Positions 4,591-51,443 of a DNA stretch of 61,670 bases are shown piece by piece (position 1 is the stretch's first letter; each line of letters opens with the position of its first letter). The DNA comes from a virus. The stretch spans positions 1 to 61,670 of IMG/VR virus record IMGVR_UViG_3300047319_001572, one strand, 5' to 3'. The notes beneath the pieces are model-generated. The model saw only the letters and a program-made list of their open reading frames with translations. It had not been told where the DNA came from and ran no database searches. The position numbers and the translations under genes were made by a program.

Positions 4591-5193
4591 TTACTCTCCT
4601 GTCTTTTCGGTCAATGCGTTTGTTGGAAGGGTTCCGGAGTCTCTGGAAATTCGCAGTGTGTCCAGCAATTTGCTTGCGTCCGCATGGCTCAGTTTCAATT
4701 GTTCGCCATCTTCCGCGGTAAAGCGCTGATGGGCATCAAGAAATCCCTTTCGAACGAAATCGGTATCCCGGTCCGATCGATAAGCGATCCGGGCAAGACC
4801 TCCGACCTGACGAACCGCGTAATCTGTCGCCGGCGGTATCTGCGGGGCTCCCTGGAAATGTCCGATATCGACATGCCAGTGCTTCCGGACGTAAACCTGG
4901 ATCCAGTCCCAGGCCTGTTCTGATAGGAGCGTAGGATTGACTCCTGTTCGTTCCAAAATGAACTTTATCGGCGGCATCATCGAAGGCCTGTCCCACTCTG
5001 AAATTGTTCGTTTGGTGGCCGCCTTCAATGCGTCGGGTTCGAGTTCCACAAGAACCTCTAGGTAGCCGGCCATAGTCAGTTCACTCAAACTCACGTTTGC
5101 CGTCGCTGCGATCTTTAGAATCAAATCGAGCGTCAAGCGCCTCCGCTCTTTCAAAGTTAAGTTGCTGTCTGTCTTTGGGTTGTCCGTTCCCAT
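4591..5193 (-). CDS. Phage replication accessory protein, helicase-loader candidate (DUF6475-like)
   Basis: A 200-residue protein with an N-terminal helical half (residues 35-80, LSELTMAGYLEVLVELEPDAL) and a C-terminal half reading AWDWIQVYVRKHWHVDIG...YAVRQVGGLARIA...DFVRKGF. I associate that pattern with a phage family (DUF6475-like) encoded beside replication initiators. It overlaps the initiator gene by 113 bases, a phage O/P-like arrangement, which supports a role in loading the host helicase. The family link is from memory and should be checked by profile search. Confidence 0.6.
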   Translation of the reverse strand: MGTDNPKTDSNLTLKERRRLTLDLILKIAATANVSLSELTMAGYLEVLVELEPDALKAATKRTISEWDRPSMMPPIKFILERTGVNPTLLSEQAWDWIQVYVRKHWHVDIGHFQGAPQIPPATDYAVRQVGGLARIAYRSDRDTDFVRKGFLDAHQRFTAEDGEQLKLSHADASKLLDTLRISRDSGTLPTNALTEKTGE

Positions 5194-5920
5194 TCCCGTT
5201 TCCTCCGTTGACGTGGTTGATTGGTTTGCCGTATCGATCGACGGCCGAATTTCTAAAAACCTGGTACCGGTTTGCCAAATCCGCGATCGTCCACTTTCCG
5301 AGTGCGGATCCGAAATAGTTCACAATCGATTCCTCCCAGCCTTCCGGGGTTTCTTTGGTTCCGATTTTGAAACTTTTTCGAAGTCTGGCGAGAATGACGA
5401 AATCCTGAGTTTTGAAGTCGTAGGGAACCCGTGTGTACTCCAGGCATTTTTCAGCGAACGAATCTGCGGCTGGATCCGGTGTTCCACCGCGTTTCACTGA
5501 CGCCGAAGGCGTAGTCTTATTCCCCTTCTGTTCTGTATCTGTATCTGTTCTGTTCTGTATCTGTTCTGGGGGCGTTACTGCTAACGGTGGTGAAACGTTT
5601 CGTTTCTTCTCCCTGTGACGTTTCACGCGTTCCGTGCTGGTATCGCTCTTGTACTGTCTTTCGAACCACTTATGAGGGGATAGCTTTCCGAAGCGCTTAT
5701 CAAGAAGTCCCTTTTCGTCCAGCAATTGTAACATTTCAGACACGTACTTTTCGTCACAGCGAAACGCAAATGAAACGGCCTTTATATCGGGAAGGAAACC
5801 GTTGTTGCGACATGCAAGGCAAAGCGTGTTGGTCCAGAATTTGAAGAGTTCAGGCGGGAGAGTTTGAACTTTCGGATCGTCCAGAACTTCGTGATAGAAC
5901 CGAAACCACGGTTGAGCCAA
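5081..5920 (-). CDS. Phage replication initiator / replisome organiser
   Basis: A 279-residue protein that opens with PWFRFYHEVLDDPKVQTLPPELFKFW, the N-terminal winged-helix type of phage replisome organisers. A variable linker follows (residues 100-150, rich in T, E, K), then a helical domain and a Gly/Asn-rich tail near 235-250. By analogy it binds the phage origin, which in many phages lies inside the gene. The start is TTG at 5920, preceded by AAAGG at good spacing and agreeing with homologs that begin at this point. Confidence 0.75.
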   Translation of the reverse strand: MAQPWFRFYHEVLDDPKVQTLPPELFKFWTNTLCLACRNNGFLPDIKAVSFAFRCDEKYVSEMLQLLDEKGLLDKRFGKLSPHKWFERQYKSDTSTERVKRHREKKRNVSPPLAVTPPEQIQNRTDTDTEQKGNKTTPSASVKRGGTPDPAADSFAEKCLEYTRVPYDFKTQDFVILARLRKSFKIGTKETPEGWEESIVNYFGSALGKWTIADLANRYQVFRNSAVDRYGKPINHVNGGNGNGNGQPKDRQQLNFERAEALDARFDSKDRSDGKREFE

Positions 5921-6021
5921 TTGCCGACCTTTCTCGAAATGCCGGCCTTGAGAGTGGAAATGCTGGGGCCCACCTGGTCGGCAAGGACTCTTCCGCAGGG
6001 AATGACCCTACGGTAGGGCCC

Positions 6022-6052
6022 TCAGCGAGGGGGATTTTCTACCCCTCGCTGA
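6022..6052 (-). terminator. Strong hairpin between exported-protein gene and replication genes
   Basis: Perfect 11-bp arms (6022-6032 and 6042-6052) close a nine-base A/T-rich loop, 18 bases after the stop of the gene ending at 6070. There is no T run after it on the minus strand. A second small CCCTA..TAGGG hairpin follows at about 6006-6018. It may attenuate rather than end transcription into the replication genes. Confidence 0.5.
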
Positions 6053-6062
6053 AGACTGTCAA
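6034..6062 (-). promoter_or_regulatory. Candidate promoter for replication genes
   Basis: TTGACA (6062-6057) is followed after 17 bases by GAAAAT (6039-6034). The -35 is perfect and the -10 matches four of six. The -10 lies in the loop of the hairpin at 6022-6052, so fold and promoter share bases. It would transcribe the initiator gene starting at 5920. Confidence 0.4.
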
Positions 6063-6069
6063 CAGGATT

Positions 6070-6579
6070 TTATGGGGCGTCGTTGACTTCGAGGGTCAAA
6101 TTGAGATCGATCCGGAGGGTATTGGAGATAATCGGCCAGTTGGCGCCACTGGCACGCCGGATCAGCAAACTGTTGGATCCTTGGGAGGCAATGACATAAC
6201 AGGTTTCCCATACGCCGGCGTTTCCGTTGTCGGTTGCCATCAGAGCGGCCGATGTGACGGTCCGGCCGGCGGTACGTCCCTCCGGAATCTTGACGGTGAT
6301 GAAGGAACTGGCTGCAGATCCGGAAGTGGATGAGTTCAAAACGTCGACCATCAGGTGGAGTTGCTTGTTTTCATCGACGTTGTAGCGGTAAGTATTCTGG
6401 GTACCCACGGCAAATGTCATTCCGGCGGTTGCGCCGAAATTAGTCGAATCGTAGGGAACCGTGGTGTAGGCACCAGTTCCCAAGGTGGCGTGAACCGGAG
6501 TTTCGGTATAACGAACGAGGCCAGCCATAACGAACAAAAGAACCAGGGCAATCAAACTGCAATTCAGAAAATACTTCAT
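6070..6579 (-). CDS. Exported protein with N-terminal signal/anchor
   Basis: A 169-residue protein starting at ATG 6579 behind a strong AAGGAG site. A longer frame upstream has no such site. Residues 4-22 (FLNCSLIALVLLFVMAGLV) form a signal peptide or membrane anchor. The rest is beta-rich with Ser/Thr/Gly and no enzyme motif. It is the third exported protein in this operon after the two Ig-like ones. Role unknown. Confidence 0.7.
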   Translation of the reverse strand: MKYFLNCSLIALVLLFVMAGLVRYTETPVHATLGTGAYTTVPYDSTNFGATAGMTFAVGTQNTYRYNVDENKQLHLMVDVLNSSTSGSAASSFITVKIPEGRTAGRTVTSAALMATDNGNAGVWETCYVIASQGSNSLLIRRASGANWPIISNTLRIDLNLTLEVNDAP

Positions 6580-6604
6580 GGAATCTCCTTTGAATTTGAA
6601 CAAG

Positions 6605-6979
6605 TTAGTGGACAGAACTAGAGCCTGGAGTCTGGAACGGAACGGGAATAATTTCACCTACAAAACGAGTTCCCAAGGTGAACGCGACCCATGCGCGCAC
6701 GACCGCGGCGCCGGGACTGTCGCCGTCCTGGCAAACTCGAATGCGGCCTTCGGCGTAACAGCCGCAGACTTTGAACGATTCAGGAACTCCGGCCGGCCGA
6801 TCCGCTTCCCTGAGCAAGTGGGTGTTGCGCGGGAGCTCGAGGAACAATGTCGGCCAGTGCTGGTCGTCGTGCCAATCTTCCAGGCAGTTCTCACATTCAC
6901 ACAGAGGATCGTGGCTGTCGTTGTTGCGTAACTGATTCACCTGGCGATTGATTCGCTGTTCTAACGTGAGTTCTTTCAT
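6605..6979 (-). CDS. Hypothetical cysteine-containing protein
   Basis: A 124-residue protein with a CECENC motif near residues 27-32 and a CGC pair near 72-74, suggesting metal binding. The start at 6979 has AGGAG eight bases upstream and overlaps the preceding 47-residue gene (ATGA). Frames on the other strand over this stretch lack a ribosome site. No family recognised. Confidence 0.65.
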   Translation of the reverse strand: MKELTLEQRINRQVNQLRNNDSHDPLCECENCLEDWHDDQHWPTLFLELPRNTHLLREADRPAGVPESFKVCGCYAEGRIRVCQDGDSPGAAVVRAWVAFTLGTRFVGEIIPVPFQTPGSSSVH

Positions 6980-8369: not shown

Positions 8370-8654
8370 ATGGCAAAGTCTTTGTACAAACAACCGCTCC
8401 GGTGCTTCTACTGCGGACACAACAGGTGTAAGTGCGAGTTTCCCAGCAATGCCGATTTCAGTCCACATTTCGTCTTTGGTCGGTTGCGGAATACGGTTCG
8501 CCAGATGTATTACAACGGTTGCAAATATGACCGTTGTGCAACAGCGGAGGAAGTGAAATTTCTGCTGGATGTTATTGAAAAGCAGGATCGGCGAGAAGAG
8601 TACCGCCGGTTACCTGGACAAGCAATCATACGAGGGCCTGGAAAGAAGAAATGA
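8370..8654 (+). CDS. Small zinc-ribbon-like protein
   Basis: A 94-residue basic protein with CFYCGHNRCKC near residues 12-22, a four-cysteine knuckle, and a further C at about 51 and 56. It overlaps the nuclease gene that follows (ATGA at 8651). Metal binding is likely. It may assist the adjacent DNA enzymes, but there is no direct sign of that. Confidence 0.6.
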   Translation: MAKSLYKQPLRCFYCGHNRCKCEFPSNADFSPHFVFGRLRNTVRQMYYNGCKYDRCATAEEVKFLLDVIEKQDRREEYRRLPGQAIIRGPGKKK

Positions 8655-9571
8655 ACGAAGAAACAAAGCCTGAAAAGGAAATCACAAATCTGATTCCACT
8701 GGCACTGCAGGTTGTCGATCAGAGCGTGGAGCCCGATACCCCGTATGCGGCGCCGGGACGCGCCCAGCTTCACTATTCCGGACTCGATCGTCTGCAGGGT
8801 TGCGGGGAAGCATTCTACAGAATCTACATTGTCGGGGAAAAGCAGGACGCCAATGTGTCGATGATGGTCGGGACGGCCGTCGACAAGGCGACTGCGCGAA
8901 ACCTCGAGAACAAGATTATCACCGGGAAACTGCTGACGACCGATCAGGTGGAATCGATCGCGCGGGATTCCTTCGAGATTGAATGGAAGCTCCGGGATCG
9001 TGTGCTTTCCCAGGAAGAACGTCTGGCCGGCGAAGCGAAGACCAAAGGGGACGGCATCGACAAGTCCGTACGACTCGCCCGGCTGCACCATCAGGTGATC
9101 GCTCCGACGATCAATCCGACTCACATTCAGCGGAAATGGGCGATATCGATTCCAGGGTTCCAGTTCGATCTGGTGGGAGAAATCGACGTCCAGGAAGGCG
9201 CCATAGCCATCCGGGACACCAAAGCCAAGGGAAAGAGCCCGTCTGAAAACGAAGTCCATTTCTCCGATCAGTTGACGATCTACCATCTCGCCGTGAAGGT
9301 TCTCGACAAGGTCGACGTCAAATCCGTGAAACTCGACTGCGTGATTGACAACAAAGTTCCGGTGGCAAAGGTGTACTCTTCCACGCGCGATGCGGATGAT
9401 CATCGGGTTCTTCTGAACCGGGTGGAGCGTGCCGCAGAAGTGATTGAGAAAGGCGCCTTCACGCCGGCCCAGCCGACAGACTGGCGCTGTTCCCCGAAGT
9501 GGTGTGGGTTCTACAAAACTTGCAAGTTTGCAAAGGTTCCTAAATCGTTTGTCATCGACAAGGGAGAATAA
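8651..9571 (+). CDS. Cas4/RecB-like PD-(D/E)XK nuclease with Fe-S cysteines
   Basis: A 306-residue exonuclease candidate. Catalytic residues are readable: EID at 177-179, then IRDTKAK with D189 and K191, followed by QLTIYHLA. Four cysteines placed as in Cas4 and AddB iron-sulphur nucleases are present: C51 in the N-terminal RLQGCGEAF, then C280, C285 and C291 near the C-terminus. VGTAVDKA near 73-80 fits the family's GxxVH-type motif. It lies two genes before RecT, so it probably resects DNA ends for RecT annealing. The gene is an ordinary operon member with no CRISPR array nearby. Confidence 0.82.
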   Translation: MNEETKPEKEITNLIPLALQVVDQSVEPDTPYAAPGRAQLHYSGLDRLQGCGEAFYRIYIVGEKQDANVSMMVGTAVDKATARNLENKIITGKLLTTDQVESIARDSFEIEWKLRDRVLSQEERLAGEAKTKGDGIDKSVRLARLHHQVIAPTINPTHIQRKWAISIPGFQFDLVGEIDVQEGAIAIRDTKAKGKSPSENEVHFSDQLTIYHLAVKVLDKVDVKSVKLDCVIDNKVPVAKVYSSTRDADDHRVLLNRVERAAEVIEKGAFTPAQPTDWRCSPKWCGFYKTCKFAKVPKSFVIDKGE

Positions 9572-9757: not shown

Positions 9758-11080
9758 ATGGCTGAAATGACAGCGGTACAGAGACGAGAACAGGAACAAC
9801 AGGCGATCGTGACCCAGCGTAAAAAGAGCGCCTGGGACATGCTGAAGGAAATGAAGGGTGGTATCGCCAACGTCCTTCCCAAACACATGACGCCGGATCG
9901 CATGGCGATGATTGCCTACACGGCCATGCAAAAGAACCCGAAGCTGCTCGAATGCAGCCGGGAATCGCTGATCGGTTCGATCATGACCGCGGCGATGTTG
10001 GGACTGGAGCCGTCCGGACCGCTGGGACATGGCGCACTGATTCCCTACTGGAACAATCGCAGGAGGGGTGGTGCGGGACTGGAGTGTCAGTTCCAGCCGA
10101 TGTACCAGGGATTGCTGGATCTGGCGCGACGATCCGGATTCATTCAGGACGTGCAGTTGCGCGCGGTGTACAAGGGTGACAGGTATTCCTATCGGTTCGG
10201 ACTGGATCCGATTATTGAACACGTGCCGATGGAGGGAGAGGGTGCCGACGCGCCCGATCGTGAAGTAACCCACGTCTACGCAATCATTCGATTGATCGGT
10301 GGTGGTGTGCAGTGGGATCAGATGTCCTGGGCCCAAGGGATGGCACACGGGAAGCGATACTCCCCCAGTTGGGATCCGACATTGAACGCTGGCAAAGGCG
10401 CCTTTAAGGGTGGCAGTGTCTGGGCCGATAACCCGTTGCCAATGGTGCTGAAAACCATCCTGAAGATCGTTCTGAAGCTCTGTCCGAAGAGTCCGGAACT
10501 TTCCGCTGCCCTCCTGCAGGACGACGGAGCGGACATGGGCAAAACCACAACGATGCACAAGTTTGACGAGAACGTGTTCGATGTGGACTTCGGCGACGAA
10601 GACGACGGCAAGCCCAACGGACGGGAATCCGGAACGGTATCGGCGGCCGATCTGAAGCCGGGAGAGGAACAGAACCGCGGACACGGCAAAGAGAATCTGG
10701 CGTCCGCTGCGGGGAAGCCGGCGAAGACCGATACGAAAACGGCAAAATCTGAAACGAAATCCCCGGAAACTGGCGCTTCGGAAGCCCAATATGAAACGAA
10801 ATCCCCTCCGGCCGAAACGAAATCCGATCCGCCGGCCGGCACGTCGACGGCGACGGCCGATCCGCTGGCGGTGACGGATCCGGAAGCGCCGTACAACGCT
10901 GCCCAGCGGGAATACCTGGAAAGCAAGCGCCTCGGATTGAGCATCGATCCGACGTTATGGCTGAACTGGGCGAAGAAAACCTTCGATGTGAAGATGACAT
11001 CGAAACTCCCACAGAAAACCTTCGAGCGTGCGAAGGCATGGACGGATAACGGTGGCAAGGAGGCGACAGATGGCCAGTAA
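9758..11080 (+). CDS. recT: RecT-family single-strand annealing protein
   Basis: A 440-residue protein whose first 260 residues are RecT: KNPKLLECSRESLIGSIMTAAMLGLEPSG near 65-93, QFQPMYQGLLDLARRSG near 111-127, and LPMVLKTILKIVLKLCPKSPELSAAL near 228-253. It should anneal complementary single strands. The C-terminal 130 residues are an unusual low-complexity tail with repeats of the type ETKSP (about residues 325-355), encoded by repeated GAAACGAAATCC units, ending in a short helical domain. Ordinary RecT is near 270-300 residues, so the tail is an extension and may bind a partner such as SSB or the nearby nuclease. Confidence 0.9.
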   Translation: MAEMTAVQRREQEQQAIVTQRKKSAWDMLKEMKGGIANVLPKHMTPDRMAMIAYTAMQKNPKLLECSRESLIGSIMTAAMLGLEPSGPLGHGALIPYWNNRRRGGAGLECQFQPMYQGLLDLARRSGFIQDVQLRAVYKGDRYSYRFGLDPIIEHVPMEGEGADAPDREVTHVYAIIRLIGGGVQWDQMSWAQGMAHGKRYSPSWDPTLNAGKGAFKGGSVWADNPLPMVLKTILKIVLKLCPKSPELSAALLQDDGADMGKTTTMHKFDENVFDVDFGDEDDGKPNGRESGTVSAADLKPGEEQNRGHGKENLASAAGKPAKTDTKTAKSETKSPETGASEAQYETKSPPAETKSDPPAGTSTATADPLAVTDPEAPYNAAQREYLESKRLGLSIDPTLWLNWAKKTFDVKMTSKLPQKTFERAKAWTDNGGKEATDGQ

Positions 11081-12389
11081 GAAACGATTCCGAGTTCGGT
11101 TGATAACGGTCCACAACATCATGGGAATTGGCGCCGAAGTGGAAATCAAGCCCGGCGCTCTGACTCTGGTGAAGGGTAAGAACGGTTTGGGGAAGACGTC
11201 ACTGATTGAAGCTATACGGGCTGCTCTGGGCAAAGGCCACAAGGCGACACTTCTCCGGGAGGGTACCGAAGAGGGGGAAATCGTCATCGTTTTGGATGAT
11301 GGTTCGGGGCCTCCCTATCTGACCGTTTCGGCCAAGGTGACCGCAGACAAGACCGATCGCAAGGTGGGATATCCGGGGGAAGCACCGCTGGCACGGCCGG
11401 CGGAGCAACTGGCCAACATCCGGAACGATTTTACGTTGTTCCCCACCGAGTTCCTGACGACGAACAAGAACGATCGTCTGGCCTTGTTTCTTGATGCCGT
11501 ACCGTTGACAGTGGACAAGGACGATCTGGCCGGAGTCCTATCGTTGCTGCCGCGGAAGGACATGGTGGATCTGAATCGACACGCGTTTAAGGTGCTGTCG
11601 GAGATTGATCAGATCCTTCGCGACAAACGGAAAGCCGTCAACGCTGTTGTCTCTGAGAAGAGAAAGACGGTGACGACGCTGAAGGCTGGCATCGCGACCG
11701 ACATCGAGGATGTGAGCGAAGCAAAGACGCGCCTGGACGAATTGAAAGCGCGGATCGAAGCAAATCGCACCACCTACATGTCGGAAGTTGAAATTGCCAA
11801 TGCCGACTACAACAAGGAAAAGGACGCGCTGACCCGCAAGTACAACGAGGATCTGTCTGCGTTGACTCAGACGGCGAAGGATGCTGCCCAGGAAATGGCC
11901 GATGCGTACCAGAAGTCCGCTCAGACCGTGGGTATGGAAGTCGCCACCTTGGAAGAACAGGTCAAAACGTTCGACAAGACGATTGAAACCCGCGATTTGA
12001 TAGCACGATTGAATTCCGACGCCACGGAGCAAAGTATTCTAAGCGATCGGCTGACGGAAGCCTTGGACGTGGACCTGAAGGATATCCGGAACGATCTGGT
12101 GACGAGGGTTCCGATCGAGGGTGTGACGGTTCAGGATGGGGACATCTGCGTCGATACTCCGGACGGGAAGGCGATTCCGTTCGATGCGGTGAACACGCGT
12201 GAGAAGTTGCGGGTTGCCGTCGATCTGGCGCTACTGAAGGCCGGCCCGTTGCCGTTGCTGCTGATGGACGGCGCCGAAGCTCTGGATCAGGACAGCCTGG
12301 ATGAACTGCAGGAACTCCTGGAAGCGAAGGGCGCCCAGCTTGTCGCCTCGCGCGTGACGGAAGATCCGGAGATGGTGATTTCGAAATAG
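11070..12389 (+). CDS. SbcC/RecF-like AAA ATPase
   Basis: A 439-residue ABC-type ATPase of the SMC/Rad50/RecF group. Walker A GKNGLGKTS sits at residues 36-44, a charged coiled coil runs roughly 185-310, and the Walker B region LPLLLMDGAEALD is near 393-405. It is much shorter than SbcC. It begins at ATG 11070 behind AAGGAGG and overlaps the end of RecT. No SbcD nuclease is adjacent. With the Cas4-like nuclease and RecT it makes a recombination module. The structured RNA region begins directly after its stop. Confidence 0.8.
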   Translation: MASKKRFRVRLITVHNIMGIGAEVEIKPGALTLVKGKNGLGKTSLIEAIRAALGKGHKATLLREGTEEGEIVIVLDDGSGPPYLTVSAKVTADKTDRKVGYPGEAPLARPAEQLANIRNDFTLFPTEFLTTNKNDRLALFLDAVPLTVDKDDLAGVLSLLPRKDMVDLNRHAFKVLSEIDQILRDKRKAVNAVVSEKRKTVTTLKAGIATDIEDVSEAKTRLDELKARIEANRTTYMSEVEIANADYNKEKDALTRKYNEDLSALTQTAKDAAQEMADAYQKSAQTVGMEVATLEEQVKTFDKTIETRDLIARLNSDATEQSILSDRLTEALDVDLKDIRNDLVTRVPIEGVTVQDGDICVDTPDGKAIPFDAVNTREKLRVAVDLALLKAGPLPLLLMDGAEALDQDSLDELQELLEAKGAQLVASRVTEDPEMVISK

Positions 12390-12390
12390 T

Positions 12391-12819
12391 AAGCAAGGGT
12401 CGATCGCTGCGGTTAAATAAGAATGCATCCTCCGGGTAAGATCCCGGTCCAAACAGCGAGAGGCGGGAGACCGGCCCGGGGAGCGGACTGACCCTTTAGT
12501 ATTCGTGGTGGTCCAGTTAGGGATAAACGAAGCGGTGTGATGACGACACTGCGCCACCACGAAGTTTCCGCAGTTCTCTTGCACGATGCGCGTGCAGGTT
12601 CTGACCAAGCTACGTAGGCGCGGTTGGCTCTGTGTGGCGGCCGGTGGGTTATCCGGCAACTGCGGATTTGAAATTCCCTCTGCCAATTGGGGGAGTCGCC
12701 GGGGATGTCCCGGTGTTGCAAGGGGAGGCCGTTGAGCGCATGGCTGTGCGGCGGCCTAACCTTCTGTTCGCAACTGGGCGGCTGATACTTTGAGGTTAGA
12801 TGCGAAGCGACAGCCGTCC
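12391..12819 (+). ncRNA. Large highly structured RNA region, class unknown
   Basis: The only gene-free gap over 300 bases in the plus operon is tiled end to end with complementary arms: 12430-12436/12475-12483 enclosing 12444-12449/12469-12474; a perfect 10-bp stem 12502-12511/12554-12563 enclosing 12532-12538/12546-12552; a perfect 9-bp stem 12567-12575/12658-12666 enclosing 12578-12585/12591-12598 and 12640-12644/12653-12657; hairpin 12697-12703/12709-12715; a four-part arm from 12715-12719/12770-12774 inward to 12736-12740/12745-12749; and 12776-12784/12811-12819, ten bases before the next gene. I see no RNase P, tmRNA or group II core and no RT nearby. A free RNA or a cis-acting leader are both possible. 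Confidence 0.65.
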
Positions 12820-12832
12820 AGAAAACTTATGA
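12800..12832 (+). CDS. Possible 10-codon leader peptide at 3' end of structured RNA
   Basis: ATG 12800 has GAGG five bases upstream and a 10-codon frame whose TGA overlaps the ATG of the next gene at 12829. The ribosome site lies in the loop of the last RNA stem (12776-12784/12811-12819), and the coding part runs through the 3' arm of that stem, so translation would open it. The following gene has only a weak site of its own. Confidence 0.3.
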   Translation: MRSDSRPENL

Positions 12833-13056
12833 CTGACGACGAACGATCCACCCAAGGCTACGAACATTACAAATCGATCCGAGAAAAGATGACGCGCGGC
12901 GCCATTTTCAAACGGCCTGGGGACGCGTCGTTCTTCTCGGATCAGATACCGCGGTTCAACAAGCGGTTCGAGAAAACGTACGTTTCGCCAGGACAGTTCA
13001 AATGGCTGTCCGATATCGATAAGGCCGGACTCACAAGAACACGAAAGGCAAAATGA
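12829..13056 (+). CDS. Hypothetical small protein after structured RNA
   Basis: A 75-residue basic protein from ATG 12829. A TTG at 12790 would extend it into the RNA stem region and is less likely. It reads GAIFKRPGDASFFSDQIPRFNKRFEKTYVSPGQFKWLSDIDKAG, soluble, with no cysteine. It has no obvious Shine-Dalgarno site and may depend on the leader frame at 12800. Family not recognised. Confidence 0.6.
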   Translation: MTDDERSTQGYEHYKSIREKMTRGAIFKRPGDASFFSDQIPRFNKRFEKTYVSPGQFKWLSDIDKAGLTRTRKAK

Positions 13057-29007: not shown

Positions 29008-29079
29008 CTGAAGGGGGAGGATTCGAACCTCCGATGGGCACATTAACAGTGTGCTGCCTTACCGCTTGGCTACCCTCCA
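29008..29079 (-). tRNA. tRNA-Asn (anticodon GUU)
   Basis: A complete cloverleaf reads on the minus strand. The 7-bp acceptor (TGGAGGG with CCCTTCA) has one G-U pair, the anticodon stem GCACA/TGTGC encloses CTGTTAA, and the T arm is GGAGG-TTCGAAT-CCTCC. The discriminator is G, as expected for Asn. No CCA is encoded. Confidence 0.9.
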
Positions 29080-29085
29080 TTTGCC

Positions 29086-29152
29086 TTGTCCCGGTTGGAC
29101 TCGAACCAACAACCTTCTTTGGCATGACGCTCTGCCGCTGAGCTACGGGACA
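29086..29152 (-). tRNA. tRNA-Gly-like gene with shortened anticodon arm
   Basis: The acceptor (TGTCCCG with CGGGACA), D arm (GCTC...GAGC) and T arm (GTTGG-TTCGAGT-CCAAC) are perfect, but only about 67 bases are present. The anticodon arm is about 12 bases (TCATGCCAAAGA) instead of 17. GCCAA in it recalls a Gly(GCC) loop. It is either a decaying tRNA or a functional atypical one. The sequence is otherwise clean, which argues for recent loss or selection. Confidence 0.6.
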
Positions 29153-29272: not shown

Positions 29273-31462
29273 TCACGGAGTCGGCTGACCCAGCGCCTCG
29301 AGGGCATCACGTCGGCTTTTGATTCCGGCGCCGCCGGCTGCTCCCATCGGACCAGATACAACGGTGGTTCGGTTCATGAAGTTCCGGACAGGTCCGGCAG
29401 GTTGCACCTGTCGGCCGCCGGCGGATTCTTCATCCATGACCTGCTGGAGTCCCTGGCGAACCGTGGTCTTCACCGGTTCCGGCAATTTCTCGATCGCAAG
29501 CATATCGGCCATCGTCGGCTTTGAAAGCCAGTCGAGAACAGACGCGCGCGTCAGAAGGAATGACAGGCCATACTTCGAAGCCAGCGGAACCAATCCCAGC
29601 AACGGATGTCCGAGGGCGACACCGATCGGAGCGGATGCCAGCGTTCCGGCGTCGTACTTGGAAATTTCCGCAAGGCTGCGTCCCTTAGCTTCGACGCGTG
29701 CCCGTTTGTCGGCAACGATGTTTTCGGCCGTGGGTGGCGCCGGTTCATTGAACACCTTCCGCGGTGTGGTTGCAGTCACCACGGGAGTCGGCCGTTCTCC
29801 CGGCTTCGGCGGGTTCGGCATCTGCTGTTGACGTTGCACCTTGTAAGCGGAGGCCTCATCGCGCGCGGCGCCGAGGTTCTGAGCAAGATCGGCGACAGCG
29901 TTGGCGTCCGGAGCGTACACGCTACGGAGCCGTTTCAGTTTTCCGATCGCAATTTCGTTGGCGTTACCGCGGAAGAACTCATTCGATGCTTCGCCGGGAT
30001 TCTTGACGCCGACCGATTCACGAACCTTGGCGATTGAACTGTCCTTGTCATAGAACAGATCCTGATAGTCGTGCCAGAAGGAGTCGGCATTTTTCAGCGC
30101 GCCGCCGGCGTTGTTCCGTTCGGCGATAACCGTTTTTGCGGCGTCGATTTTCTCCTTCATGTACTTCAGCGCCTGGTAGATATCTCCCGGCAGATTGCCT
30201 TGCGCCAGTTTCCTACCAATCTCGGAAGAATACCCTTGCAGGTCTTTGAATCCGATATTTTCATCGCCGCCGAAAGCACCCTGTTCCTTCAGCATGTCGT
30301 AGAGTCGATCGCCAGGCTTGACCGTCATTCCGCCGGCCTGAACTTCCCCTTCTTCGGCACCCTTGCGAATCAGTTCGTTGAACTGTTTGATGCTTTCTGC
30401 GGATCCACTGAGTTTCCCTTGGGCTTCCTTCGCAGCCTGGGCCATCTCCGAAAGAGGAACGCCGGGATCATCCTTCACCGCCTCGCGGACGGTGTTGTAT
30501 TTTCCATTAGCTTCCTCGCGAAGTTTCAAATCCAGGTCATTGACCTTTTCGCCCAGCCGCTTGCTACCTTCCTCGATCGAGCGGTTCACCGCCAGATTGC
30601 GGGACTCTCCCTGAAGGGCTTCACGGTTCGCTTTGATCGTGTCGGCTGCTTTTTCTTTGAATCCGGCTTTTTTCTCGGCTTCGGCTTTTTCAAAGTCGGA
30701 CATTTTGTCAGAGAATTTCTGATCTGCTTCGATTCCGGCCTGACGGTTTTTGTCAGCGATCGCGATATCCGATTCGATTTGCTTCATTCCGGTGGCGGCC
30801 CGATCGGCGTTGTACGCGTCGACCAGAGGTTCCGTGGTCTTGAACGCGCTACTGGATGCCATCGTCTGTCCAGCACGACGGGTCAGGTCCGGAAGTCCGG
30901 CAGCATTGGCACCAGCAACGGCGGCATCCTTCAGTCCAAGAACCGCAGGTGCGGTCTGTGAAGCAAAGCCTCCGGCGCCGTGCGCGGCCGTCTCATAGTT
31001 TCCGGATTTCACTCCTCCAACAAGTTCCTTGACAGGTTCCAGCGGAGCCGTGACCGCACTCTTTACCATATTCACGGCCTTACCAGGTTTTCCCAAGAGC
31101 GCATCCCATAGCGCCTCACCGCCCTGCTGCAGGGTTCCAAGGAGCGCCTGTCCGGACAACGGTTCCAGTAGTCCGATTGCCGCTTCGCGCGCGCGACTGG
31201 CAGCCGTGCCTGGCTGGGTCATCGTCACTTCACCGGTTTGCGGATCGCGGCTGACCTGGGATCCGGGATTCGCTTTTTCCATCTCCGAATCCAGAACCTG
31301 TTTCTGGCCAGCCAGCATCGTCGACTGACGAAACTTCTCCCGGTATGCGGGGTACTTCTCGAGGATCTTATTCGTCAGTTCCAGATCCGGAACGTTCGCG
31401 TATTGCGGATATTTGGCCTTGATCGTTTGTGCAAACGATTCGGGTGTGAGTTCATCAGCCAT
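29273..31462 (-). CDS. Putative internal virion / ejection protein
   Basis: A 729-residue protein. The N-terminus (SFAQTIKAKYPQYANVPDLELTNKILEKYPAYREKF) is of a type I know from large internal proteins of short-tailed phages. Residues 130-215 are Ala/Gly/Val-rich and could insert in membranes, and 230-330 form a long charged coiled coil. Near the end, a Gly-rich stretch follows a VLDWLSKP segment. It is the last gene of the structural block, with two more ejection-like genes upstream. Lytic transglycosylase motifs are not visible. Confidence 0.55.
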   Translation of the reverse strand: MADELTPESFAQTIKAKYPQYANVPDLELTNKILEKYPAYREKFRQSTMLAGQKQVLDSEMEKANPGSQVSRDPQTGEVTMTQPGTAASRAREAAIGLLEPLSGQALLGTLQQGGEALWDALLGKPGKAVNMVKSAVTAPLEPVKELVGGVKSGNYETAAHGAGGFASQTAPAVLGLKDAAVAGANAAGLPDLTRRAGQTMASSSAFKTTEPLVDAYNADRAATGMKQIESDIAIADKNRQAGIEADQKFSDKMSDFEKAEAEKKAGFKEKAADTIKANREALQGESRNLAVNRSIEEGSKRLGEKVNDLDLKLREEANGKYNTVREAVKDDPGVPLSEMAQAAKEAQGKLSGSAESIKQFNELIRKGAEEGEVQAGGMTVKPGDRLYDMLKEQGAFGGDENIGFKDLQGYSSEIGRKLAQGNLPGDIYQALKYMKEKIDAAKTVIAERNNAGGALKNADSFWHDYQDLFYDKDSSIAKVRESVGVKNPGEASNEFFRGNANEIAIGKLKRLRSVYAPDANAVADLAQNLGAARDEASAYKVQRQQQMPNPPKPGERPTPVVTATTPRKVFNEPAPPTAENIVADKRARVEAKGRSLAEISKYDAGTLASAPIGVALGHPLLGLVPLASKYGLSFLLTRASVLDWLSKPTMADMLAIEKLPEPVKTTVRQGLQQVMDEESAGGRQVQPAGPVRNFMNRTTVVSGPMGAAGGAGIKSRRDALEALGQPTP

Positions 31463-38519: not shown

Positions 38520-39710
38520 TTAAGTATTCGCGCAGGTTATGAAAACCTGTGCACCGTTGCTGTCTGCGTGGGAACCAGTTGACACAAACGCCGATGACGA
38601 CTCGAAAGATACAATCGAATTGAGATTATTTACGTTCAAAGGCGGCGCATCTTCTACGAAAAGGATTCCGTCGCTGGAATGAGCAAACGTACCGTTAAAG
38701 CCTCCGGCACTACTACCCGGACCCGCTGCCAGAAACAGTCCCAGAGACGTAGACCAGGCCACTCCGTTATAGAGTCCAGCTCCCGATGGAAATACCGGGA
38801 TAGTTCCGAGCGTCCATGACATTCCGTCGGAGGAGTGCATTGTCCGATTGTCGACGCCGGAACCAAGTCCACCGACGGCGACAATCAGTCCGAGCGTTGG
38901 CGAATATGCCAGAGCGTGCCATTCGTTGTCGCTGACGGCGGTCCGTTGAGTCCAGACTACGCCATCGGGAGAAGTAACAACGGGCTGATTCAAACTGGGA
39001 TCTGTCCCAACCGAAATGAACAGATTCAGTGCGGAAACCCAGATAACCGCATTGGGCAACTGATTGAAGTTACCCGGAAACGTCTGGAGCGTCCAAGTGA
39101 CTCCATCTGGAGACGTCATCGCAAGGGGTAGTCCGGACCCGGACTGGTCGCTTCCGACGGCAACAAACTGGCTCTGTTCATGGGACCAACAAACTGAGGT
39201 CCAATCGAAATTTGGAGCCGTCGTTTGCTGTGTCCATGCTGAACCGTTGGCCGATGTCATCACGTTGGCTGTTCCTCCACCATTGCGGGAACCAACAGCA
39301 CAGAAGATCATCAGATCTGGGGACCAGCACATACCGACAGCCGTCATTCCCAAAATTCCCAAGCTGTGCCCTGTCCACGTAACGCCGTCGATCGACGTCG
39401 CGGATCTTTCCGTAGTGCCCGAATTGCCTATCGTCAAAAGAAGCGGAATCTCAGGAGCATAAGCCAGAACATCCCAAACAGCGGTGGGGCTCGTCACGGC
39501 CTCGTCGGTAAGCAAGAGTGAGGAGCAACCAGATGGTGTCGGGTTGGTATCAAACAGGAGCGCGTAGCCCGGCCGGGTCTGGAGCGATTTCACGGTTCGA
39601 ACGTTTCGAGCGTACGGGAACTTCGTCGGCGGCATCTCGTCTGCCGCCGTGTTGGTTTTCATTCCCCCGAAGATGTATCTCCATCCGCCCTCTATTCGTT
39701 GAAATCCCAT
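38520..39710 (-). CDS. Beta-propeller virion protein (SPDGxxW repeats)
   Basis: A 396-residue protein with about six blades, each carrying a (T/S)S.DG.(T/S)W(T/S) unit (TSIDGVTWT, TSANGSAWT, TSPDGVTWT, TSPDGVVWT, HSSDGMSWT, HSSDGILFV), the Asp-box-like pattern of sialidase-type propellers. Between them are VCWSHEQSQFVAVGS-like strands. A short N-terminal part (RYIFGGMKTN) might anchor it. Receptor or polysaccharide binding is likely. Catalytic residues of sialidase are not identifiable. Confidence 0.65.
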   Translation of the reverse strand: MGFQRIEGGWRYIFGGMKTNTAADEMPPTKFPYARNVRTVKSLQTRPGYALLFDTNPTPSGCSSLLLTDEAVTSPTAVWDVLAYAPEIPLLLTIGNSGTTERSATSIDGVTWTGHSLGILGMTAVGMCWSPDLMIFCAVGSRNGGGTANVMTSANGSAWTQQTTAPNFDWTSVCWSHEQSQFVAVGSDQSGSGLPLAMTSPDGVTWTLQTFPGNFNQLPNAVIWVSALNLFISVGTDPSLNQPVVTSPDGVVWTQRTAVSDNEWHALAYSPTLGLIVAVGGLGSGVDNRTMHSSDGMSWTLGTIPVFPSGAGLYNGVAWSTSLGLFLAAGPGSSAGGFNGTFAHSSDGILFVEDAPPLNVNNLNSIVSFESSSAFVSTGSHADSNGAQVFITCANT

Positions 39711-51105: not shown

Positions 51106-51443
51106 ACTTTTTCCTCAACAGGAACGTTGAACGATCGGCGAGTGTGGTAACCACCCGTTGTGGTTTTCAGTTTTTCGTCGTCGGGGTCGCCTTTGTCCAA
51201 AATCCAAAAGCGTGCACCGTAGGGAACTTCAATCAAATCCGGCAACGTGTAGAATTTTTTGCAGTCGTAGCATCCTGGCGGAGTGGGACTCCAATTTCCT
51301 TCGAAGAAGCCGTTGTACCAGATACCGATACGGCCGTCTGGTGCAATAACCATGTTGTTACCACTGTGTCCGTCGTCAGACAGTCGGCCTGTCCCACAAT
51401 TGGGACACATCAGCGGCCTACAATCTTCGTAAATGAAACTCAC
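51102..51443 (-). CDS. Hypothetical protein with zinc ribbon
   Basis: A 113-residue protein with LMCPNCGTGRL near residues 11-21 and a later GCYDCKKF near 57-64, forming a four-cysteine zinc site, separated by a beta-rich stretch. It overlaps the portal start and the preceding stop (ATGA). Such ribbon proteins sit between TerL and portal in some phages. Function unknown. Confidence 0.6.
   Translation of the reverse strand: MSFIYEDCRPLMCPNCGTGRLSDDGHSGNNMVIAPDGRIGIWYNGFFEGNWSPTPPGCYDCKKFYTLPDLIEVPYGARFWILDKGDPDDEKLKTTTGGYHTRRSFNVPVEEKV

Follow-up and report, generated by a model that had tools for sequence, protein, structure and literature searches.

A structured non-coding RNA in the early operon of a phage, with a covarying counterpart in a second phage

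To our knowledge, large structured RNAs of phages are few, and their roles are mostly not known. Antiterminator RNAs of the put type bind the RNA polymerase elongation complex and suppress termination. The HK022 put RNA is 73 nt long, consists of two stem-loops and lies just downstream of the early promoters (PMC9378689). In GOLLD, as in the RNA described below, one part is conserved and another less so (PMC12286853). The window analyzed here is an IMG/VR virus contig of 61,670 bases (IMGVR_UViG_3300047319_001572), in which the first-pass annotation had drawn attention to a gap in the early operon, supposedly filled by the arms of a structured RNA. Our analysis confirms that a real structured RNA, non-coding and on the same strand as the operon, lies in this gap.

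The genes around the RNA lie on the plus strand and mostly overlap or almost touch one another. Protein family scans identified a PD-(D/E)XK nuclease (an exonuclease, 8651-9571, with only a weak match to Cas4-like nucleases) and a RecT protein (9758-11080), with a small gene between them. They are followed by an SbcC/RecF-like AAA ATPase (11067-12389; Pfam AAA_23, 1.9e-8), and the gap, present as it had been described, extends from the end of this gene to the ATG at 12829, where a gene for a basic protein of 75 aa with no assigned family begins (12829-13056). No Shine-Dalgarno sequence is evident ahead of this ATG when the sequence is read. Another small gene and then a DNA methyltransferase gene come next, all of these being on the plus strand. 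No promoter- or terminator-like site bounding the RNA was found, the promoter consensus used being that of sigma-70 only, and the GC skew shows no turn at the RNA site. Among the neighboring proteins scanned, which cover part of the genes of the contig, there was no TnpB, IscB or Cas effector and no reverse transcriptase. The terminase is closest to those of the Tunturiibacter phages Tunturi_1/2 (31%). Elsewhere in the window, two tRNA genes lie close together on the minus strand (29008-29152), 16 kb from the RNA, and an IS1595-type transposase is encoded near the contig end (1063-2064, minus strand; ISXO2-like domain, E 4e-41).

A search of IMG/VR with RecT gave two relatives. One of them (L002, in genome G001, IMGVR_UViG_3300021082_000023) carries a stretch of 162 nt that is 81% identical to window positions 12564-12723 by blastn. 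The L002 RNA occupies the same operon place and strand, after the same ATPase and in an intergenic gap with a small gene on either side; the window and L002 are the two known examples of the element. The ATPases preceding the RNA share only 33% protein identity. In L002, an ORF of 78 aa (Cys-rich by eye) lies between the ATPase and the RNA, and a different small gene follows, starting 23 nt beyond the last helix (H8) with a GAGGA motif ahead of it. Homology between the 12829 protein and a small L002 protein (BLASTP E 4.7) is not claimed. The two phages are alike only in the early block of exonuclease, RecT, ATPase and methyltransferase and in a few further genes. The RNA core matches their best coding stretches in similarity and is longer than the equally identical ones. 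The other relative (G002, L021) shares RecT together with the small gene that precedes it (1440-2827). Different small genes come next in its operon; the ATPase and the RNA are missing, and a covariance model of the RNA finds no match in this contig.

The first-pass annotation had suggested looking for compensatory changes in homologues, and such changes are abundant. Covariation was assessed on the two sequences over the 43 pairs of six core helices (H1-H6). Every one of these pairs forms in the window, and all but one (42) do so in L002. The paired columns contain 19 differences. Seven pairs have changed in a compensatory way, which accounts for 14 of them; with 4 more the pairing survives through G-U, and a single one breaks its pair. 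When 19 substitutions were placed at random on the paired columns, none of 200,000 trials reached seven compensatory pairs or the observed number of kept pairs, and sliding the partners by 1-3 columns lowered the pairing from 98.8% to under 46%. Compensatory changes between homologues, as expected of a structured RNA, are found in seven core pairs, with more in helix H7. The loops are more conserved than the stems (9 of 69 unpaired columns differ, vs 19 of 86 paired ones), as would be expected if the loop sequence is read by something. There are six G-U pairs in the window and three in L002, and these pairs, together with the better fold of the plus strand, favor the plus strand as the one that is folded.

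Folding energies agree with this. The plus strand of 12391-12828 reaches -194 kcal/mol, compared with -170.8 +/- 5.9 for 100 dinucleotide shuffles, none of which was as good (z -3.95), so that the proposed comparison with shuffled controls also came out in favor of a fold; the minus strand folds less well (z -2.40). By domain, the energy is distributed unevenly. For the core (12566-12718), z is -3.8 (window) and -3.95 (L002), and the 3' part (12719-12820) is moderate (z -2.9). The hairpin at 12500-12565 has z -4.9, with 0 of 200 shuffles as good. The first stretch (12391-12499) is not significant, 20 of 200 shuffles being as good (z -1.4), and the corresponding stretch of L002 has z +0.16. A scan of both strands of the whole contig in 160-nt tiles revealed several other places with lower z than the RNA. 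Fold energy alone would thus not pick out the gap, and the comparative evidence carries the claim. The lowest value of the contig (-6.7, from 20 shuffles) belongs to 51280-51439 on the minus strand, inside a reading frame of 113 aa between a portal-sized gene and the terminase, and has no Rfam match. Two long strong hairpins lie at about 5900-6060 on the minus strand (z -5.4), in the gap between the genes 5081-5920 and 6070-6657, and a clear U-run after them was not seen. A very stable fold at 38800-38959 on the plus strand (z -5.5) is antisense to the frame 38520-39710, whose coding score is low.

The supported element comprises about 255 nt (12564-12821, plus strand), arranged as a four-way junction and four hairpins (H5-H8); its 5' end is set at the point where conservation starts, this being the only marker. 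The claim that arms fill all 430 nt of the gap end to end thus stands for about 12564-12821 and goes too far for the first ~110 nt. In that 5' flank (12391-12499, plus strand), a possible stem AAGGGTC/GACCCTT (12395-12401/12490-12496) can be drawn, but the flank has no blastn match in L002 and is not supported as conserved RNA. All of the previously named stems that were checked are present in the sequence. The 10 perfect pairs of 12502-12511 TTCGTGGTGG with 12554-12563 CCACCACGAA, which enclose an inner hairpin, form the strong plus-strand hairpin 12500-12565 just before the core; this hairpin belongs to the window only, with no sequence counterpart in L002.

Within the core, H1 (12567-12666, plus strand like all the helices) closes the junction around H2, H3 and H4 by 9 perfect pairs (12567-12575 TCCGCAGTT with 12658-12666 AACTGCGGA) and shows two compensatory pairs and none broken. 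H2 (12578-12598) is a hairpin of 8 bp (12578-12585/12591-12598, one pair being U-G) with the invariant loop AUGCG, three compensatory pairs and none broken. H3 (12601-12627, 6 bp) carries a 15-nt loop, AAGCNACGUAGGCGC, invariant at 14 of 15 positions, and has two compensatory changes, one wobble change and one broken pair; here the minimum free energy (MFE) fold of the window favors a different pairing. H4 (12640-12657, 5 bp, loop UGRGUURU) adjoins the 3' strand of H1, appears in both MFE folds and has invariant pairs. The two hairpins that follow the junction, H5 (12673-12696, 8 bp, invariant loop UGCCAAUU) and H6 (12697-12715, 7 bp), differ by one U-G/U-A change and by two wobble changes, respectively, with no pair broken.

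The 3' part contains the two-part arm H7 (12720-12763), built from 12720-12723/12760-12763 and 12726-12733/12750-12757 (4+8 pairs) plus an inner hairpin. Three compensatory pairs and one wobble change are found in its inner part and two compensatory pairs in its outer part, none being broken. The terminal stem H8 (12774-12821; 12774-12784/12811-12821) ends 7 nt before ATG 12829. In L002, 8 of its 9 compared pairs are kept, one changes from G-U to G-C and one is broken. The evidence for H7 and H8 is weaker, because this alignment was made by eye; the register of H7 involves a 1-nt shift, aligned by hand. A pseudoknot in the 3' part (TAACCT/AGGTTA and TTCGCA/TGCGAA), weighed against stem H8, was rejected, since equally good pairing arises in 24% and 38% of the shuffles.

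Further homologues were sought by several routes. Searches by blastn with the window gap in phages gave none, those with the L002 core in phages gave only chance matches of 22-32 nt, and those with the window core in plasmids found no homologue. DNA pattern and protein scans of IMG/VR returned only G001, where the RNA is present, and G002, which has RecT without the RNA; bacterial genome contigs, searched by RecT alignment and by the RNA pattern, yielded nothing. The pattern matches L004-L006, L008, L009 and L029-L059 are not homologues according to the covariance model, and that of L008 is coding sequence. Tunturi_1, which has the most similar terminase, contains no match to the RNA. The phages with homologues of the ATPase (L024-L027) have no comparable gap after it and no convincing model match. 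A second match of the model in the window, at 30887 (12 bits), lies inside a gene and was taken as chance.

With respect to known classes, no Rfam family (4227 families) matched the window gap at gathering scores, and permissive filters up to E 10 gave only unrelated noise in both the window and L002. Rfam matches are absent for GOLLD, ROOL, OLE, group I and group II introns, RNase P, tmRNA, 6S RNA and SRP RNA, and ARAGORN detected no tRNA or tmRNA in the RNA region. The first-pass annotation, which had seen no group I/II or RNase P core and had assigned the RNA to no class, is borne out; the covariance-model search for membership in GOLLD or ROOL, which it had proposed, gave no such membership. 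By these tests, the RNA is a new family within the known kind of structured phage RNAs.

As to function, the most likely working explanation, to which we give about an even chance, is that of a stand-alone RNA of the phage that is excised from the early transcript and acts in trans. The RNA would be made together with the rest of the early operon; its folded part may resist host RNases, or be trimmed by them, and so be released from the transcript; and the released RNA would act in trans, with the conserved loops AUGCG, AAGCNACGUAGGCGC and UGCCAAUU presumably bound to a protein or an RNA, either of the host or of the phage. The neighbors of the RNA in L002 differ on both sides, a situation easier to reconcile with a self-contained element than with the leader of a single gene. 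Combined with the sequence conservation of the loops, these differing flanks favor a self-contained, trans-acting RNA.

The constant operon position and strand in both phages, between the ATPase and the methyltransferase and with no promoter- or terminator-like site of its own, nevertheless keep a cis role in play. In that case the RNA would be an element of the early operon mRNA that controls the downstream genes from within the transcript, through an effect on RNA polymerase (processive antitermination in the manner of the HK022 put RNA), by changing how the mRNA is processed or how stable it is, or by masking where gene 12829 starts. The short distance from H8 to this ATG and its lack of an evident Shine-Dalgarno sequence are in line with a cis role. 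However, the first downstream gene is a different one in L002, so that no single target gene is kept, and the put RNA, the best-known model, is 73 nt long and near its promoter (PMC9378689), whereas the present RNA is far larger and lies ~5 kb into the operon. We regard a cis-acting element as a real possibility, short of an even chance. More tentatively, the RNA may be a new phage RNA class with a function of its own, for example that of a trans-acting RNA occupying a host or defense protein through the invariant loops, and be carried with the recombination module between otherwise unrelated phages.

A site that works as DNA, that is, folded single-stranded DNA or a cruciform serving as an origin or in recombination or packaging, seems improbable. 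The neighbors do act on DNA (the PD-(D/E)XK nuclease, RecT and the SbcC-like ATPase), and compensatory changes alone do not separate RNA from single-stranded DNA; but the G-U pairs kept on the plus strand would turn into A-C mismatches in the complementary strand, and the GC skew, as noted, does not turn here. Eight helices with near-invariant loops of 15 nt and 8 nt are more than such DNA sites usually need. Finally, conservation of a short protein from ATG 12586 (MRVQVLTKLRRRGWLCVAAGGLSGNCGFEIPSANW...) is most improbable: although L002 has the same ATG with an open frame of 34 codons, the coding explanation is ruled out by nearly all-nonsynonymous differences (13 nonsynonymous vs 2 synonymous codon changes, the first, second and third codon positions differing 6, 9 and 5 times), the frame of L002 ends at a point where that of the window is still open, and the conserved helices reach outside the frame; coding sequence in homologous phages, which the first-pass annotation had named as the finding that would speak against an RNA, is thus not what we see.

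Overall, the RNA is backed by covariation and, at about 255 nt, is small enough to synthesize and study, and its several near-invariant loops define what to test for binding. Its presence in two phages that are recognizably alike only in the recombination/early block makes it look like part of the kit of this module.

Compared with the described systems, the RNA resembles GOLLD and ROOL in general type only: it is large, multi-helix and phage-encoded, as they are. At about 255 nt it is much smaller, since the ROOL RNA that was studied has 659 nt and many GOLLD RNAs exceed 800 nt, and its place also differs, as GOLLD and ROOL are often near tRNA genes. A likeness to the tRNA cloverleaf is seen in the junction, where H1 encloses three hairpins, the last of them adjoining H1; unlike a tRNA, it has an 8-bp second arm and a 15-nt third loop and is without the T-loop sequence. 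The HK022 put RNA is likewise a structured RNA within a phage early transcript, but it does not have the eight helices of the present RNA, which also lies about 5 kb from the start of the operon, where the scan found no promoter nearby.
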